Source of the DNA: a virus
Strand: one strand, 5' to 3'
Length of the DNA stretch: 31,707 nucleotides
IMG/VR virus record: IMGVR_UViG_3300042453_002699
Location: 1 to 31,707 of that record
The translations under genes were made by a program, and so were the position numbers. Below the pieces are notes generated by a model. It was given only the letters and a program-made list of their open reading frames with translations. It did no database searches and was not told where the DNA came from. This document shows, one piece after another, positions 6,370 to 21,113 of the stretch (position 1 is the stretch's first letter; every line of letters begins with the position of its first letter).

Positions 6370-6543
6370 TTGATGCTCCCGCTTAGACAGGGGAGCATGC
6401 GCCTTCTGTCGTGCAATCTTGATATGCAGTCGCACCAAGTCCTGCCACTGTGGTGGACATCCCTTGAGAGCGGCCTTCTGAGCTTCCCTGCCCTTAGCCT
6501 GAAGATAAGCCTGCGCGTAGTGTCTTGGGCTCTTCGTTGTCAC
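6361..6543 (-). CDS. Small conserved phage protein after primase, 60 aa
   Basis: This last gene of the leftward replication operon probably starts at GTG 6543, whose GTGA overlaps the primase-helicase stop. An upstream GTG at 6600 would give 79 residues but overlaps by 61 bp. The central sequence SPRHYAQAYLQAKGREAQKA and a following PPQWQDLVRLHI resemble short proteins that often follow phage primases (pattern YA..I......AR..AL..VP...R..V..H). This is recalled and not searched. Function is unknown. The C-terminus is basic. The gene converges on, and overlaps by nine bases, the rightward gene ending at 6369. Confidence 0.65.
   Translation of the reverse strand: MTTKSPRHYAQAYLQAKGREAQKAALKGCPPQWQDLVRLHIKIARQKAHAPLSKREHQSK
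6373..6398. terminator. Hairpin at convergent gene ends
   Basis: ATGCTCCC (6373-6380) and GGGAGCAT (6391-6398) form a perfect 8-bp stem with a 10-base loop, four bases after the rightward stop at 6369 and inside the end of the leftward gene. No T-tract follows on either strand, so a bidirectional terminator is plausible but not canonical. Confidence 0.45.
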
Positions 6544-8867
6544 TTGCGGTATGCTCGCGGTGGGCACAGCATGAGTCGCTGTCCATTGCTTTTTCGGCAC
6601 TGATCACCGTTTTTTGCTCTGATAAGTGTGCTGGCAATGGCGCTGTCGGTCTTCGTTGGACGCTCGATGCCGCACTCGATGAGCACCGTTGATGCCTGAG
6701 TCCAGCGCCAGATTGTGTGTGGAGCCGTCCAGTCGAGTTCATCGAGCAGGCGTTCCTCAATCGGCTCGACGGCCATGAAGTCACTGTTGTGAGCGTTCAG
6801 CGCAGTCATCTCATCCGCGCTCAGATAGTAGCCCTCCCCTGCCTGCCAGAGAGCGTAGACCTCTGCCCAGACCTGCTGCATGTTCAGGCCGTGATCGTGC
6901 TGGATGTGATCGCACTCGATTGTCCAGAAGCGCCGGTTGCCGGTGGCGTCGTGCAGGAACTCTCTGGGATTGACCGAGCCGAAGAACATCGTGCGCCGTG
7001 GGAAGCGTGACTCACGACGCGCGTAGGCGAGCCTGAGCACGTCGATCTGCTTTGTGATGAACGCCTTGAGCTGTGCGATGTCTGACTTGCGGAAGGTGCT
7101 GTCCAGCTCACCGAGCTCCACGAGCCAGTATGAGGTGCATTGCTTGACGGAGTCCTTGTCGTCTGGCTTGAGGATCATGCCCTCCTGAATCAGGTCGAGC
7201 TCTGCCGGAACCAGTGTCTTGAACCACTGAGTCTTGCCCAGATACTGAGCGCCCTGCAGCGTCAGTACGCCCGGTGCGCTGATGCCGTTGGGCATGTACG
7301 CAGCAGCCACCGCAGCGATCATCCACCGCTTGATCAGCGTGTCCTTCATGGCGTTGTCGCCCTTTGCGGTGATCGTGTCACACAGAGCCTGTAGGCGCGG
7401 CTTGCCATCCCACGCACGAGAACCTATCCATGAGACAACCGGGTTGAACTGTGTCTCGTCGGCAAGGTAGGTGATGAAGTCGCTGATGCGATCTGTCGGG
7501 AACTTGAAGAGGCTGCACTCAGACGACAGCCACGCCAGTGATGCGTTGGCCTCGTTGTCCATCGTGTAGGACTCGCCGGGGATGATGATCTCCTCTGACT
7601 TCTTGATGACGTTGTAGCGGATGACGACGCCGAGCCGGTGACAAATCTCTCGCAGGTTGTCGATGTGGCGCAGCGGTCTGAGCTTGTCGTCTGTCCACAG
7701 CAGCGGGCTCAAGTGATCGCTTTGTCGTGCTGGCTCAGTGACGTCTGTGTCAGCCGGCTCTCGCTGTATCTGCGGCGCGTTTCGCTGAGTCTGGGCTGGT
7801 GCTGTCTCCATGCCCAGCAGGTTTGCTGCAGCCTTGACGGCGCGTCTCATGTCTCCGTTGTGTTCGTAATAACAGTACAGATCGAATGCGTTGACAGGCT
7901 TGCCAGACTCCTCTGAACACAAGGGATCGCTGCTGTGGTGGATCCAGCATGAGTCGCCGCTTGGGAATATAATAACACCCGGCAGCCCGGTGCCGCTGTG
8001 TGGCGACAGGTAGCGCTTGGATCCCTTGCGCTGGTAACCGTACTGCTCGAGCAGTGTGATTAAATCGTGGGCATCAGTGAATGCGTCGATAACACTGCCA
8101 CGAACCGTGCCGGATGTGTTGGCCTTTTTGTGCAGTGAGACCTCTGGCTTTTTGTCCTCTGGTAACCACGGACACATGCCTTTGACCTGCGGCTTGAATC
8201 GTTCCCAGTCACTCCACATCGCGAGCAGCCACTGCGGTGGCTCAGGCCAGTCATCGACTGGCTGAACCAGCCACTTGTACGGCTGCCCTGTGTCCGGGTG
8301 AATTGATGGTGGCAGCACGTCTTGTCGCTGCTTACCGTCGCACGATGAACGTAGCTCGAAAACGGTGTAGCGAGCCCAACGCTGGGCAACCAAGCGTATG
8401 CGCGCCTCTCTATCAGCGTCACCGCTGACCTTCGCAGCTGCAGCTGCAGCCATCGCCTGCTTGTGCTTGTCTCCTGTGGGATCGTTGCGGGAAGGCCAGT
8501 CCAGCTTGTGATAGCCGAGCATGACGTCTGCGGGCACACGGAACATGACACGCCGCCCCTTGCTGCTACCCTGTATGACGGGGAAGGCGCTGAGGGTGCT
8601 TTCATCGATGCCGAATTCGGCGCATATGTGTGAAAAGGAAACATCGCAATCGATGTCGAGCGAGCACATGCGAGATGGTCCAAGCGCCACGCCCATGTTC
8701 CAGTCTGGCCGTTGCTGCCAGAAATTCTCTGCTTCTGCCGGGTCACTGATCGTGTTGTTGCCCCAGTCGGATGCTCGGGGGAATTTGCGACTGGGCTCTA
8801 TAGGCACAAGATGCATGCCGAAGCGTTCGGTGTACCGGCGGGCGTACCAGCTGATTGGCTTACTCAT
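6540..8867 (-). CDS. PrimPol-VirE-like primase-helicase
   Basis: A 775-residue protein likely to prime and unwind DNA at the phage origin. Residues 1-210 fit an archaeo-eukaryotic-type primase-polymerase domain: the acidic motif SLDIDCD (69-75), a region PVIQGSSKGRRVMFRV (96-111) at the place of the sGxH motif, and the family signature LPPSIHPDTGQPYKW (185-199). Residues about 280-320 (YLSPHSGTGLPG, HHSSDPL) match the linker of phage primases. The C-terminal VirE/D5-like ATPase has Walker A GAQYLGKT (539-546), Walker B YWLVELGELD (580-589) and a sensor region GSVNPREFLHDATGNRRFW (630-648). Arg replaces His in the second primase motif, which is atypical. The start ATG overlaps the previous stop (ATGA). 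The gene is in operon with a helicase and a nuclease. Confidence 0.9.
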   Translation of the reverse strand: MSKPISWYARRYTERFGMHLVPIEPSRKFPRASDWGNNTISDPAEAENFWQQRPDWNMGVALGPSRMCSLDIDCDVSFSHICAEFGIDESTLSAFPVIQGSSKGRRVMFRVPADVMLGYHKLDWPSRNDPTGDKHKQAMAAAAAAKVSGDADREARIRLVAQRWARYTVFELRSSCDGKQRQDVLPPSIHPDTGQPYKWLVQPVDDWPEPPQWLLAMWSDWERFKPQVKGMCPWLPEDKKPEVSLHKKANTSGTVRGSVIDAFTDAHDLITLLEQYGYQRKGSKRYLSPHSGTGLPGVIIFPSGDSCWIHHSSDPLCSEESGKPVNAFDLYCYYEHNGDMRRAVKAAANLLGMETAPAQTQRNAPQIQREPADTDVTEPARQSDHLSPLLWTDDKLRPLRHIDNLREICHRLGVVIRYNVIKKSEEIIIPGESYTMDNEANASLAWLSSECSLFKFPTDRISDFITYLADETQFNPVVSWIGSRAWDGKPRLQALCDTITAKGDNAMKDTLIKRWMIAAVAAAYMPNGISAPGVLTLQGAQYLGKTQWFKTLVPAELDLIQEGMILKPDDKDSVKQCTSYWLVELGELDSTFRKSDIAQLKAFITKQIDVLRLAYARRESRFPRRTMFFGSVNPREFLHDATGNRRFWTIECDHIQHDHGLNMQQVWAEVYALWQAGEGYYLSADEMTALNAHNSDFMAVEPIEERLLDELDWTAPHTIWRWTQASTVLIECGIERPTKTDSAIASTLIRAKNGDQCRKSNGQRLMLCPPRAYRK

Positions 8868-9116: not shown

Positions 9117-9461
9117 TTATTGGATCAACTTTAAAGCATCTTCCACGGATCGCGCAACACCCGCGACACCGCCGGCCTTGATCACTGCGTCCATAAAACG
9201 CTGCTGCTCAGGCCGTATGCGCCCGGTGGTGGTCTTCACCTCAACGGCCAAAAACCTGCCGTCTGGTGCGATCCCGATGATGTCAGATCCGCCCTTGGTC
9301 AGACCCGCGTGAATCATGCGCGCCTCTGCAATTGTTACGGTCTTGCTGATCTGATGCACGACCCGACCAACCCATGCACCAGCGGTCTCGCATCGCCACA
9401 CAGTACAGCCGGCCTCAGAAAGCGCCAGCAATATCCTCACTTGGATTTGTGATTCTTTCAT
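9117..9461 (-). CDS. VRR-NUC domain nuclease
   Basis: This 114-residue protein fits the VRR-NUC family of PD-(D/E)XK nucleases. It has an N-terminal Glu (MKESQIQ), the core GGSDIIGIAPDGRFLAVEVK with D84-region and EVK catalytic residues, and the family's following Q..F...I...GG..GVARS pattern. Such stand-alone phage enzymes are Holliday-junction-like or flap nucleases that act in replication and recombination. The specific substrate here is inference. It overlaps the end of the upstream helicase gene by 47 bp, which suggests coupled expression and a shared pathway. The length is typical for the single-domain form. Confidence 0.9.
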   Translation of the reverse strand: MKESQIQVRILLALSEAGCTVWRCETAGAWVGRVVHQISKTVTIAEARMIHAGLTKGGSDIIGIAPDGRFLAVEVKTTTGRIRPEQQRFMDAVIKAGGVAGVARSVEDALKLIQ

Positions 9462-10884
9462 AGATTGCGCTCGCCTCTTTAAACTCTGCCGGTGTTGGCT
9501 TTCTACCCTGCCGGCTGGCGTTTACTATCGCCGCCCATGCTGCCGGGTTTTTCATTCCGCGACTGACGCCGACCGAAACCAAGTCTACGAGCCCTCGAGC
9601 TTTAGCCTGTTCCCTCCCACGCTCGCGTCTTGCTGCGTCGAGATCGACTTCGGCCAGCTGCCCGTCAACCTGCTCAATCTTGCGCCCAGTGACCTCAACC
9701 TCTGCGCCACAGTTTGGGCATTCTGACACACCTCGCTTGAAGATGTGGAAGCACTGTTTGCACTGTTGTATCTGCAGCTCCGGGTCTTCGTCGCGCGTTG
9801 ATCGCTTGCGCTTCTTGCGCCCGTCCAGAGACCATTCTCTCACGTCGTCGGGCAGCCCGTGTCTCTGCCAGTTGTTTACCTGATCAAGGATAACGAGCTC
9901 AGACTTGCCCTGCTCGGGACGCAGGCCGCGACCGATGAGCTGCAGGTACACGATGACAGACTGGGTGGGTCGCAGCTGCTGTACCGCCTCAACTGCTGGG
10001 ATGTCGAGTCCCTCGATAGCGAGCTGGACAGTGCAGAGCACAAGCGTCTGGCCTGCGCGGAACCGCTCTAATGCGTCCTCACGCTCCTTGTCTGAGTTCG
10101 TGCCGTCGATGTGCTCTGCTGGGATGCCAGCAGCGTTGTACTGCGCGCATGTGTGCTCCGAGTGCGCAATGGAAACACAGAACACCATACAGCGTTTGCC
10201 GTCCACGTACTGCCTGTATGCACGGATCGCATCGCCTGTGATCGTCGGCCTGTCCATGACCTTCTCTGCCTGCTTGATGTCGTAGTCACCGGCCTTGGTT
10301 TTTACGGAGCTCAGGTCTGGACCATTGACCGGGGCGATGAGTCGGTATGGTGACAGAAACCCCTCACGGATGAGCCAAGCCATGTCCTGTACTTCAATCA
10401 TGTCAGAGTAGAGCTCGCCCAGCCCACGGCCATCCGTGCGCTCAGGCGTTGCCGTGAGCCCTATGATGTACGCATCGGGGCAGGCATCTACGATCTGCTG
10501 ATATGAGTCGCTGACCGAGCGGTGACACTCGTCAAAGATAATCACCTTGGGTCTCTGATCGACGGGCATTGTCTGGATTCGATTGGCCGCAGTGATAACG
10601 GTAGCTATCTGCGCCAACTGGGGCGATCTGCCCTTGCCAGACATGATCATGCCGTGCGCCAGCTTTGCATCCCACAGCGCCCTGCTTGTCTGATTGCAGA
10701 GCTCACGCCTGTGGACGACAAACCAACACCGATTACCCTGCTCGACAGCTCCCTGCATGATCCTGATCGCCATGCGCGTCTTGCCTGCGCCGGTTGGTGC
10801 AACGAGTATTGACCGCTTATATTGTCTGATCGAGTCACGCAGCCTGCTCACGCCGGACAGCTGATACTCACGCAGGCTTATCAT
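9415..10884 (-). CDS. Superfamily 2 DEAD/DEAH-type helicase
   Basis: A 489-residue ATP-dependent DNA helicase of the SSL2/RecG-like SF2 group. N-terminal RecA domain: a Q-motif-like MISLREYQLSGV, Walker A APTGAGKT (29-36), motif II DECH (118-121) and motif III TATPERTDG (144-152). The second RecA domain ends with motif VI QLIGRGLRPEQG. After the helicase core there is a zinc ribbon (CKQC...CPNC) and a helical charged tail. It probably unwinds DNA for replication or recombination beside the primase-helicase. Its first 17 bp overlap the end of the regulator gene, and its end overlaps the nuclease gene, so the operon is tightly coupled. Confidence 0.93.
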   Translation of the reverse strand: MISLREYQLSGVSRLRDSIRQYKRSILVAPTGAGKTRMAIRIMQGAVEQGNRCWFVVHRRELCNQTSRALWDAKLAHGMIMSGKGRSPQLAQIATVITAANRIQTMPVDQRPKVIIFDECHRSVSDSYQQIVDACPDAYIIGLTATPERTDGRGLGELYSDMIEVQDMAWLIREGFLSPYRLIAPVNGPDLSSVKTKAGDYDIKQAEKVMDRPTITGDAIRAYRQYVDGKRCMVFCVSIAHSEHTCAQYNAAGIPAEHIDGTNSDKEREDALERFRAGQTLVLCTVQLAIEGLDIPAVEAVQQLRPTQSVIVYLQLIGRGLRPEQGKSELVILDQVNNWQRHGLPDDVREWSLDGRKKRKRSTRDEDPELQIQQCKQCFHIFKRGVSECPNCGAEVEVTGRKIEQVDGQLAEVDLDAARRERGREQAKARGLVDLVSVGVSRGMKNPAAWAAIVNASRQGRKPTPAEFKEASAIYERITNPSEDIAGAF

Positions 10885-11084: not shown

Positions 11085-11113
11085 TTGACAAGATTACACG
11101 CCTGCGTTAATGT
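11085..11113 (+). promoter_or_regulatory. Promoter for the rightward recombination operon
   Basis: A consensus -35 TTGACA (11085-11090) is followed after 17 bases by a weaker -10 TAATGT (11108-11113). The predicted transcription start is near 11120, just before the GGAGGG ribosome-binding site of the exonuclease gene. It overlaps the leftward promoter candidates. Confidence 0.55.
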
Positions 11114-11119
11114 TTTCAA
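11091..11119 (-). promoter_or_regulatory. Candidate leftward promoter for the regulator-helicase operon
   Basis: On the minus strand TTGAAA (11119-11114) lies 17 bases from TAATCT (11096-11091), giving a leader of about 34 bases with a ribosome-binding site. An alternative, TTGTCA (11091-11086) with TATACG (11068-11063), also has 17-base spacing but would leave an almost leaderless transcript. Either overlaps the rightward promoter, so the two directions would compete. Confidence 0.4.
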
Positions 11120-11139
11120 TACCGTTAATTGGAGGGATT

Positions 11140-11988
11140 ATGAAAATTACATCGTATTTAGATTGGGATGGCACCTACCCAGCGCTGGTTTCCGGCATGC
11201 CAAACGCTGATTACCACCTGCACGACAGCATCAGCAACAGTGGGCTCTCGCTTGTGGCGCGCAGTCCAGCGCACTATTTCCACGCACCGAAACCCAGCAG
11301 CACTCGGGCGATGGAGATCGGCACAGCCTTCCACGCTGCCCTGCTTGAGCCGGATCGTTACGCAGCTGAGTACGTTGTTGTCACTGGCTGCGATGACCGG
11401 CGGGTGAGCGCGTACAAGGATGCCGCGAAGATTTATGGCGGCGACAAAGCACTGACTGAATCTGAGGGATCTTCGGTCACTGTGATGGCTGAGTCGATCC
11501 GGTCCAACGGGCCGGCTAACATGCTTTTTACACAAGCAGGACACGCTGAACTGTCAGCCTTCGTGCGCGATCCAGAAACCGGCGTATTTATGCGGTGCCG
11601 CTTTGACTGGCTGACCGATGAAAGTGTTTGCATTGATTTGAAAAAGACTCAGGACTGCCGCGAACACGCATTCAGCCGCAGCTTGCACAACTACAGATAT
11701 CATGTGCAAGCGGCCATGTACTCGCACATCTATGAGCTGCTTTTTGGCAAACCGCTGAAGTCTTTTAAGTTGCTTGCTGTGGAAGAGGAGCCGCCATGCG
11801 CTAACGTGTTGTACGACATCGATCCGCTGGCGCTACAGCACGGGCACACACTGTACCGTCAGGCGCTGGAGTCTTACGCTAAGTCGCTCGAAACCAATAG
11901 CTGGGAATCGTACAGTGGGACAGGCGTAGTCACGCTGCCAGAGTTTGTGTTGGCAGCACTTGATAACAATGATGAGGGGATTTATTAA
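11140..11988 (+). CDS. RecE/YqaJ-like PD-(D/E)XK exonuclease
   Basis: The ATG at 11140 has GGAGGG five bases upstream, giving 282 residues. The protein matches the phage exodeoxyribonuclease VIII-like (PDDEXK) family. It has ISNSGLSLVARSPAHYFHAP near the N-terminus, GTAFHAALLEP (conserved His in a GxxxHxxxLEP motif), a catalytic core RFDWLTDESVCIDLKKT (Asp, then Asp-Leu-Lys) and the trailing YHVQAAMYSHIY helix with Gln. It would resect double-stranded DNA 5' to 3' to create single strands for recombination or replication. The next genes encode a conserved partner and SSB, which is the usual neighbourhood. No RecT or Erf annealing protein is recognised nearby unless the partner fills that role. 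Confidence 0.9.
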   Translation: MKITSYLDWDGTYPALVSGMPNADYHLHDSISNSGLSLVARSPAHYFHAPKPSSTRAMEIGTAFHAALLEPDRYAAEYVVVTGCDDRRVSAYKDAAKIYGGDKALTESEGSSVTVMAESIRSNGPANMLFTQAGHAELSAFVRDPETGVFMRCRFDWLTDESVCIDLKKTQDCREHAFSRSLHNYRYHVQAAMYSHIYELLFGKPLKSFKLLAVEEEPPCANVLYDIDPLALQHGHTLYRQALESYAKSLETNSWESYSGTGVVTLPEFVLAALDNNDEGIY

Positions 11989-18949: not shown

Positions 18950-19134
18950 AATGTCACCAGCCTGATGGGACGGTGTTTGAAACAAGCGTGTTTGGTACGC
19001 TGGCAGGGCGACGTTTTACTGAGGTGACGTTGACTCTTAAAGATTTTTACGACCTATACGACGCAAAACCAGAACACCTGCGCGAATGGGCTGGACATTT
19101 GGCGACGAGATTCGGACCAGAGGAGCAACCATGA
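18946..19134 (+). CDS. Unknown small phage protein, 62 aa
   Basis: The start at GTG 18946 has GGGAGG six bases upstream and overlaps the previous stop (GTGTGA). The product begins MKCHQPDGTVFETSVFG and continues with a beta-alpha pattern (FTEVTLTLKDFYDLYDAKPE). The tail is LREWAGHLATRFGPEEQP. No family is recognised. The next gene overlaps by four bases. Confidence 0.65.
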   Translation: MKCHQPDGTVFETSVFGTLAGRRFTEVTLTLKDFYDLYDAKPEHLREWAGHLATRFGPEEQP

Positions 19135-19367
19135 ACACAGACGATGACGCGACTCGCAAACGGGCAGAGCTGGATGCTGCTGAGGATGAATTGCATGCTG
19201 CGTGGGCTGCTGCGGACGCTGCGTGGGCTATTTCGGATGCGGAGTATTCTGCTGCTATGGATGCTGCGAGGGCTGCGTGGGCTGCGTGGCATGCTAAAAA
19301 GACCAAACTTATACAGGTACAACCGCTGGAGTTTGGGTTGATGATTCAGTGGACAAGGAGGGGGTGA
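19131..19367 (+). CDS. Alanine-rich helical repeat protein, 78 aa
   Basis: The ATG at 19131 follows AGAGGAGCAACC and overlaps the previous stop. Residues 13-55 are an Ala-rich helical repeat with aromatic residues (AAWAAADAAWAISDAEYSAA and on). The DNA repeat GCTGCGTGGGCT occurs exactly at 19197-19208, 19218-19229 and 19272-19283, so the repeat is recent and may vary in length. Phages often encode Ala-rich proteins of this type with unknown function. The C-terminal part (LIQVQPLEFGLMIQWTRRG) is not repetitive. Confidence 0.7.
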   Translation: MNTDDDATRKRAELDAAEDELHAAWAAADAAWAISDAEYSAAMDAARAAWAAWHAKKTKLIQVQPLEFGLMIQWTRRG

Positions 19368-19373
19368 GGAGTG

Positions 19374-21113
19374 ATGAGATACGGTAGCGTTTGTAGTGGC
19401 ATCGAAGCAGCAAGTGTGGCGTGGCATCAGCTTGGGTGGGAGGCTGCGTGGTTCGCTGAGATTGAGCCGTATCCATCCTCGCTCTTGCAGCATCACTACC
19501 CAAGCGTACCCAATTACGGCGACATGACCGCCTTGGCTGGCAGAGTCATCAAGCTGGAAATTGAAGCACCGGATGTGCTGGTTGGCGGTACGCCATGCCA
19601 AGCGTTCTCAGTCGCTGGGCTGCGTCAATCGCTTGATGATGACCGTGGACAATTAACAATTAAATTTTTGGAGCTTGCTAATGCAATTGACACTGTTCGC
19701 AGAAGTCGAGGAGAACCCGAATGCATCGTTGTTTGGGAAAACGTACCCGGCGTCCTGTCCACCAAGGACAACGCCCTCGGCTGCTTTTTGGCAGGGCTTG
19801 CAGGGGAAAGTGAGCCGCTGCTCTCAGCAGGGGGAAAATGGTCAAACGCTGGTTGTGTGTTTGGACCCACGCGAACAGTCGCGTGGCGAGTTCTCGATGC
19901 CCAATATTTCGGAGTGGCACAACGACGCCGCCGTCTGTTTGTTATCGCAAGTGCTAGAGACGACTTTAATCCCGCAGCGGTTCTTTTTGAGTTCGACGGC
20001 TTGCGCCGGGATATTGCGCCGAGCCGAACGCAGAGGAAAGACGTTGCCGGACCTATTACAGCAGGCATTGAAAAGGGTTGCAGAGGGACAGAAGGAATAG
20101 AGAGCAACTGGGCGATACCGACTTACGGTATACCCGGCAATTGGGTAGGCAGAAAGCCTGAAAACGGCGGGAATGCTGTGCAGCCGATGGATGATCTGTC
20201 TCCAAACTTAACAAGCACTGACAGGCATGCAGTGGCTTCTGCTGTCTGTTTCCAACAAAATACCCGCGATGAAGTGCGCCTGATCGGCGGAGAGGGCAAT
20301 TTGGTGGGGGCGCTGGCTGCGAGTGCGGGTATGAAGCAGACGAATTATATTGCGCAGCCTATTCCAATCAACAGTATGAACGCTTTTCGCAGCCCTGATG
20401 CCGATAAATCAACCGGCTGCGGAATTGGGGAAGAGGGCGAAGCAATGTTTACCTTAACAAAAGCAAATCATCACGCTGTTGCCGCTCTGGGTATTACACT
20501 GCACGGCACGGACGGGACGCAGTCAGTGGCTTCGTTTACTGAACTGTCCAGTAGCCTGCGAGCGAGAACCCCTAGTGGCGTGGAAAACAGCACTACTACA
20601 GCGGTCTTGCAGTCGATTGCTTTTGAGCCGGGATTCTTAAAAAGAGAGGGAAGTCATTTTTATCACGAGCACACAGGTACATTAAGGCGAGCACCCGGAG
20701 ATAACTTGATGGCTGCGGCTATCGGTTTTACGCGCTGCGATCATGGAGGTGACGCGGTGTTAAACGGGACTCCGACTATGCGCTGCGGAAGTAATTATTC
20801 AGCGCATTTGGCCGCAGCTATCGGCTGGAGCGAAGAACTTACCGCACACACGGATCTGCAAGGCACACTGCAAAGAGGCGGTGACGGCGGCAGGCACGAG
20901 GGTGTTATGCAGCCAGACATGCAAGTGCGCCGCCTGACCCCAACAGAGTGCGAACGCCTGCAAGGGTTCCCAGATGGCTACACACTGGTGCCGCATCGAG
21001 GCAAGCCCGCAGCAGATGGTCCACGCTACAAGTCTCTGGGAAACTCAATGGCCGTCCCTGTGATGGCTTGGATAGGTACGCGTATTAACCAAGCAATTCA
21101 GGGAGGTGAGTGA
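19374..21113 (+). CDS. C5 cytosine DNA methyltransferase with repeat-rich recognition region
   Basis: A 579-residue m5C methyltransferase that methylates cytosine in DNA. Motif I SVCSGIEAAS (5-14) binds AdoMet. Motif IV GGTPCQAFSVAG holds the catalytic Cys75. Motif VI is ENVPG (122-126), motif VIII QRRRRLFV (183-190), motif IX RRLTPTECERLQGFPDGY (519-536) and motif X YKSLGNSMAVPVMAWI. The region between VIII and IX (about 225-515) is unusually long and consists of about eight degenerate units with a 'LxxxLxxxxxxHAVA'-type pattern. GAGGAG lies just upstream of ATG 19374, and a GTG one codon earlier is also possible. No restriction enzyme is seen, so it is probably an orphan phage enzyme that protects DNA or alters gene control. 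A second gene is nested within it at 19681-20100. Confidence 0.95.
   Translation: MRYGSVCSGIEAASVAWHQLGWEAAWFAEIEPYPSSLLQHHYPSVPNYGDMTALAGRVIKLEIEAPDVLVGGTPCQAFSVAGLRQSLDDDRGQLTIKFLELANAIDTVRRSRGEPECIVVWENVPGVLSTKDNALGCFLAGLAGESEPLLSAGGKWSNAGCVFGPTRTVAWRVLDAQYFGVAQRRRRLFVIASARDDFNPAAVLFEFDGLRRDIAPSRTQRKDVAGPITAGIEKGCRGTEGIESNWAIPTYGIPGNWVGRKPENGGNAVQPMDDLSPNLTSTDRHAVASAVCFQQNTRDEVRLIGGEGNLVGALAASAGMKQTNYIAQPIPINSMNAFRSPDADKSTGCGIGEEGEAMFTLTKANHHAVAALGITLHGTDGTQSVASFTELSSSLRARTPSGVENSTTTAVLQSIAFEPGFLKREGSHFYHEHTGTLRRAPGDNLMAAAIGFTRCDHGGDAVLNGTPTMRCGSNYSAHLAAAIGWSEELTAHTDLQGTLQRGGDGGRHEGVMQPDMQVRRLTPTECERLQGFPDGYTLVPHRGKPAADGPRYKSLGNSMAVPVMAWIGTRINQAIQGGE
19681..20100 (+). CDS. Nested +1-frame gene inside methyltransferase, 139 aa
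   Basis: An open frame of 139 codons lies entirely within the methyltransferase gene, in the +1 frame. ATG 19681 is preceded by GGAG (19670-19673) seven bases upstream, in effect a normal ribosome-binding site. The product MQLTLFAEVEENPNAS, then SCPPRTTPSAAFWQGL, MPNISEWHNDA and IPQRFFLSSTACAGILRRAE, RRGKTLP, closely resembles stand-alone phage proteins I recall with 'P..FFLS..AC.GILRRA..RGK.LP'. The same stretch in the main frame is motif VIII and the region after it, which is also conserved. The match of both frames to known sequence argues for real dual coding, but a conserved alternative-frame artefact is not excluded. Function unknown. Confidence 0.5.
   Translation: MQLTLFAEVEENPNASLFGKTYPASCPPRTTPSAAFWQGLQGKVSRCSQQGENGQTLVVCLDPREQSRGEFSMPNISEWHNDAAVCLLSQVLETTLIPQRFFLSSTACAGILRRAERRGKTLPDLLQQALKRVAEGQKE

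Follow-up and report, generated by a model that had tools for sequence, protein, structure and literature searches.

The small gene of the C5-cytosine methyltransferase M.EcoHK31I, as reportedly described by Lee, Kam and Shaw in 1995, lies within the large one in another reading frame. Among phages, the Rz/Rz1 lysis genes likewise form a functional pair of which one member is nested in the +1 frame of the other, with proteins and a function unrelated to those of the pair treated here. M.EcoHK31I and M.AquI are both C5-methyltransferases of two polypeptides, and M.AquI is split in sequence order with no overlap (PMC3404938). In Streptococcus thermophilus phages of the 5093 group, two C5-methyltransferase products encoded in different frames have been reported to show "apparent total overlap", with similar cases in a pneumococcal phage and in Tn5252 (PMC5601072).

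The methyltransferase locus

The window, i.e. the whole 31,707 nt stretch of viral DNA that was analysed, contains at 19371..21113 (plus strand) a gene for a C5-cytosine DNA methyltransferase of 580 amino acids (PF00145, 1.3e-36; PHROG 116, 4.2e-86), the translation of which includes the motifs up to X and which is proposed here as the alpha subunit. Fully within it, on the same strand and at an offset of +1, lies an ORF of 139 amino acids (19681..20100), the proposed beta subunit. This is the layout of the streptococcal and Tn5252 type, in which the second product is also wholly within the first at offset +1 (PHROG 16143), and the streptococcal nested products appear to share a core, CSLSxILE..KYFLS, with the family of the window. 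The lineage of the window differs from the streptococcal type by an extra hairpin, ACxGILRRAxKRGKxLP, often by a QLxLF-like N-terminus, and by a long variable region in alpha.

Unlike in M.AquI, both halves of the enzyme (motifs I-VIII and IX-X) are within one main-frame ORF, here and in 223 loci. Motif IX (RRLTPTECERLQGFPDGYT, 20928..20984, plus strand), identified in the main-frame translation along with C-terminal matches to PHROG 16528/26324, is absent from the nested product, whereas the small subunit of M.EcoHK31I is reported to carry motif IX, the two being compared by description.

Immediately 5′ of the methyltransferase gene is a small Ala/Trp-rich ORF (19132-19367) with a repeated AAW/AAA pattern (MNTDDDATRKRAELDAAEDELHAAWAAADAAWAISDAEYSAAMDAARAAWAAW), the product of which is probably a coiled coil. 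The methyltransferase shares the window with a replication module of ordinary phage type, comprising a VapE-like primase-polymerase (6540-8867, minus strand), a helicase (9415-10884, minus strand) and a DUF3799 PDDEXK nuclease (11110-11985, plus strand).

Layout and predicted structure of the nested ORF

On re-reading of the sequence, the 139-amino-acid ORF in the +1 frame and the GGAG (19670..19673, plus strand) seven bases before its ATG were as given in the original prediction, and the peptide singled out there, FFLSSTACAGILRRAERRGK (aa 101-120, 19981-20040), lies exactly as described over the main-frame VLFEFDGLRRDIAPSRTQRK. The GGAG is the likely ribosome-binding site, in line with Shine-Dalgarno (SD) enrichment in relatives, and the start codon (19681..19683, plus strand) is formed by AAT/GAT plus the G that follows methyltransferase codon 104.

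Three parts can be told apart in the product. Amino acids 2-6, QLTLF (19684..19698), resemble the pentapeptide that binds the beta sliding clamp. They are followed at amino acids 18-48 (19732..19824) by a weakly constrained stretch over methyltransferase motif VI, with an observed/expected synonymous ratio of 0.6-0.8, which is predicted to be a disordered linker (pLDDT ~50). The conserved core in turn covers amino acids 74-133 (19900..20079), includes a helical hairpin (LLSQVLE..IPQRFFLSSTACAGILRRAERRGK), and overlaps motif VIII of the main frame, VAQRRRR (19914..19934); all these features are on the plus strand. The structural model of the nested product is weak as a whole (pLDDT 62), with a disordered N-terminal part (residues 1-17 below 50) and a confident helical hairpin at amino acids 101-130 (pLDDT ~90).

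When the codons of the methyltransferase gene were shuffled synonymously, exactly the 19681-20100 stretch stayed open in 1.2% of the trials, and a +1 run of equal or greater length was found anywhere in the gene in 3.6%. For this one sequence, the open frame is thus no more than moderately surprising, and a single sequence is insufficient to settle the matter.

Selection on the +1 frame

Selection was followed in 77 non-redundant methyltransferases of close relatives and in a second, distant set of 65 non-redundant sequences from Bacillota (Firmicutes) prophages and contigs; the counts are non-independent because of shared ancestry, yet they agree between two widely separated sets. Among the 77 relatives, four-fold synonymous difference was 0.63-0.69 over methyltransferase codons 1-100, dropped over codons 101-240 to values from 0.43 down to 0.05 (0.54 at maximum), and was again 0.65-0.69 directly past codon 241. 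At a resolution of five codons, the observed/expected synonymous ratio fell from 0.97 to 0.66 at the nested ATG (codon 102-104), reached 0.09-0.27 over the nested core, mostly staying at 0.1-0.3, and was back to 1.04 at the nested C-terminus, at about codon 237. The same profile was repeated in the Bacillota set, so that in both sets the strong reduction of synonymous variability is confined to the nested ORF.

Interruptions of the +1 frame are very rare: it is open in 76 of the 77 close relatives and in 64 of the 65 Bacillota sequences, against 9.9 and 8.6, respectively, expected from synonymous resampling, and a single stop was found among the 77 sequences where 2.28 per sequence were expected. 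Purifying selection was evident as well when changes were counted by their effect in both frames, the C-terminal half of the nested ORF having an alternate-frame dNN/dNS of 0.24 and 0.27, compared with 0.83-0.91 outside the ORF. In the Bacillota set, the methyltransferase is even less conserved at its codons 211-230 (identity 0.43 and 0.30) than the +1 product (0.81 and 0.66), and the DNA there is therefore kept mainly for the nested protein.

Synonymous constraint could also be caused by an RNA element, an antisense gene or biased codon use, with the ORF itself not real, and an antisense ORF of 160 codons (19625-20107, minus strand) is indeed present over the nested region. Of the 77 close relatives, 50 have one of the antisense frames open, versus 3 of the 65 Firmicutes, so that the antisense ORF probably arises as a side effect of composition and dual coding. 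Against such an explanation, selection acts via the amino acid effect in the +1 frame (dNN/dNS 0.24-0.27). In both sets, stops abound in the +2 frame and in one of the antisense frames, and hardly any of the Firmicutes have the remaining antisense frames open, a set in which 64 of 65 sequences keep the +1 frame open. The stops rule out the antisense and +2 frames as the source of the constraint, and the explanation as a whole is extremely improbable.

Accordingly, the annotation artefact that the original prediction had offered as its alternative was rejected on the basis of the synonymous constraint and the open +1 frame. The positive claim made there, that the same bases are conserved in two frames of an overlapping pair common among phages, the second product of which might act with the methyltransferase, is supported, with a constraint confined to the ORF, an open +1 frame and a wide spread of the family, and 19681-20100 is almost certainly a genuine overlapping gene.

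Start site and initiation

Of the 77 relatives, 75 have Asn or Asp at methyltransferase codon 104, and in 73 of these 75 the codon ends in T, which creates the nested ATG; at the nearby codon Asp107, GAC is used in 68 cases versus 9. An SD-like match of at least 4 nt is located 5′ of the nested ATG in 46% of the relatives versus 8% in synonymous shuffles, and in the Firmicutes set in 98% versus 34%. Additionally, codon 103 is Arg AGG in 60 of the 65 sequences of the Bacillota set. The conservation of both the ATG and the SD match favours initiation of its own over frameshifting.

Were programmed frameshifting in the methyltransferase gene instead the route to the +1 frame, a shortened fusion would be formed, and in two contigs (L054 and L127) the nested frame does extend through to the enzyme's C-terminal half. 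These exceptions are compatible with indels, the ATG and SD sequence are kept beyond the needs of the methyltransferase, the constraint sets in exactly at the ATG, and a shift near motif VIII would lose the recognition region together with motifs IX-X, all of which make frameshifting very unlikely. In L054 and L127, the main frame ends after motif VIII and the nested frame runs on; the arrangement looks like either an indel or a true AquI-like split.

Distribution of the nested family

Searching with the nested product (tblastn) returned 152 phage records and 532 plasmid records, the latter mostly P1-like. The family is present in P1 (dmt), in P7, and in phages of Vibrio, Mycobacterium, Streptococcus, Caulobacter, Akkermansia and Pseudomonas, and in the inspected records with a methyltransferase annotated over the match, the offset was +1 by coordinate arithmetic. 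As an unbiased test, 79 viral contigs were selected by the N-terminal half of the methyltransferase only, and the nested family was found in all 79 of these contigs picked by the methyltransferase alone (HMM E ≤ 6e-61). At the level of loci, it was at +1 of the methyltransferase in 243 of 243 and in a further 113 of 113. The nested gene is unannotated in the inspected P1-like, Vibrio and other records. The nested arrangement was also observed in the archaeal Methanobacterium virus Drs3, where the methyltransferase is annotated as hypothetical and the nested ORF has no annotation.

Stand-alone copies of the nested gene, in turn, were absent from the 243 loci, the 113 further loci (80 prophages included) and 300 Bacillota genomes. 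The many stand-alone phage proteins to which the original prediction ascribed the motif were not confirmed, all relatives found being at +1 of a methyltransferase or, for a small number, part of one in cis. The gene is not thereby refuted; the absence of independent copies points to an obligate partnership with the methyltransferase.

One candidate for a stand-alone copy, gp104 of Mycobacterium phage Thibault, was dismissed, as the methyltransferase gene in which it sits is split by an HNH endonuclease gene, with both frames present there. In Thibault and in Mycobacterium phage Schatzie, the HNH gene interrupts the methyltransferase near the nested region, and the intron boundaries could not be set by the annotators; gp104 is the leftover C-terminal portion of the nested frame.

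Relation to the cis segment of Sau96I-like enzymes

The nested product had no match in Pfam or NCBIfam, and nothing relevant was found among PDB structures by sequence or, with the weak model (pLDDT 62), by fold. PHROG 16143 is a family of annotated nested ORFs, e.g. P0091 gp40 ("DNA methyltransferase"; match 1.6e-86), and it matches 53 of 68 relatives (best 2.5e-10); the window's own product had no PHROG match. The wider nested family, with P0091, L333, L363, L365 and Drs3, has the core W.GMM.NG.CLT...CSLS.ILE..V..KYFLS. A resembling segment, NAGxMxNGxxYT...TLGxILExxVDEKYYLS, is part of the methyltransferases of L334, L372 and L393-L401, which we take to be Sau96I-like. In these enzymes it follows motif VIII in cis and no +1 ORF is present over that motif (28-58 open codons), whereas in the type of the window the resembling core is nested.

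Profile alignment of the nested core with the cis segment (hhalign) gave P 2.6e-7 over 55 columns, and that of PHROG 16143 gave 2.7e-4. An HMM of the cis hinge of the Sau96I-like enzymes matched nested products at 1.5e-9, 1.6e-9 and 3e-7, and had zero matches among 142 main-frame partner proteins. For ten genes, the real cis-hinge score was reached by none of 200 synonymous shuffles each. Moreover, predicted helices are concordant in order and spacing (nested 88-93, 99-101, 105-118; cis 279-282, 289-291, 295-304). For the product of the window itself the match to the cis hinge is weak, at 0.4 bits, and the link goes through the relatives of that product.

Synonymous shuffles occasionally score 15-17 bits against the cis hinge, which means that a bias towards this pattern may be built into the +1 reading of motif VIII and that the resemblance may be convergent. 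The nested core is located over motif VIII, which was necessarily ancestral in frame 0, and simple descent from the cis hinge is thus hard to picture. A recent tandem duplication was rejected as the origin of the cis segment, the methyltransferase-frame reading of which shows stops and no motif VIII. The nested ORF and the cis domain have a complementary distribution, as the main frames of the nested type are without the cis domain in the genes examined, and this suggests that the hinge is supplied in trans by the nested product.

A proposed two-subunit methyltransferase

The best-supported mechanism, and on these sequence comparisons a fairly probable one, is that the nested product is a small second subunit (beta) of the methyltransferase. 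Beta would be started from its own ATG inside the alpha gene. Its role would be to provide in trans a segment located, in other C5-methyltransferases, between motif VIII and the target-recognition region; the segment missing from alpha would be the hinge joining the catalytic and recognition domains. A single mRNA would yield both alpha and beta, by which the two subunits would always be co-inherited. We infer that beta is expressed, binds alpha and is needed for methylation. Certain alphas have long variable regions with potential room for another hinge, which speaks against the model.

The gene may also be real and its product not a subunit, i.e. a small protein that uses the methyltransferase mRNA, such as a regulator, an anti-restriction factor or a clamp-binding adaptor. 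Such a role would suit the enriched N-terminal QLxLF-like motif, variable in position, the seemingly disordered linker, and the C-terminal hairpin ACxGILRR, which is found neither in the Sau96I-like cis domain nor in the streptococcal type. It fits less well with a core that resembles a methyltransferase domain absent from the main frame, and with the lack of any copy found away from the methyltransferase, and we regard it as possible, if somewhat unlikely.

The N-terminal motif is the part of the two-subunit scheme for which a further function can be proposed. The consensus for beta-clamp binding was reportedly set out by Dalrymple and colleagues in 2001, and the pattern Q[LIVFM].[LMIFW][FL] is present within the first 22 residues of 54 of the 98 family members, at position 2, 5, 8 or 10; in the comparison with synonymous shuffles, its observed frequency was 65% versus 2.2%. 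In the product of the window, QLTLF is in the predicted disordered end. Because many members share ancestry and 44 are without the motif, it is a lead only. Judged from the motif, the nested subunit might be a clamp adaptor, with the N-terminal QLxLF-like motif binding the host beta sliding clamp and the C-terminal core docking on the methyltransferase, in analogy to eukaryotic DNMT1, which is tethered to PCNA. Phage DNA would then be methylated during copying, a proposal that we consider doubtful and tentative.

Significance

In a literature search that covered few subscription journals, the nested gene was unreported in P1 or the Gram-negative lineage. Since overlaps in streptococcal elements have already been reported (PMC5601072), the claim of novelty is softened: the kind of arrangement itself is known and little noticed, and new here are the wide unannotated lineage, the evidence for selection, the domain identity and the beta-clamp-like N-terminal motif in many members. 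The family is present in hundreds of phage records, P1 included, and is nearly absent from annotation, having been missed because it is out of frame within another gene. Should activity depend on beta, certain cloned phage methyltransferases recorded as "inactive" may have lost beta, and knock-out of such a methyltransferase gene eliminates two proteins. The alpha/beta pair is a natural system for one stretch of DNA constrained by two proteins simultaneously.
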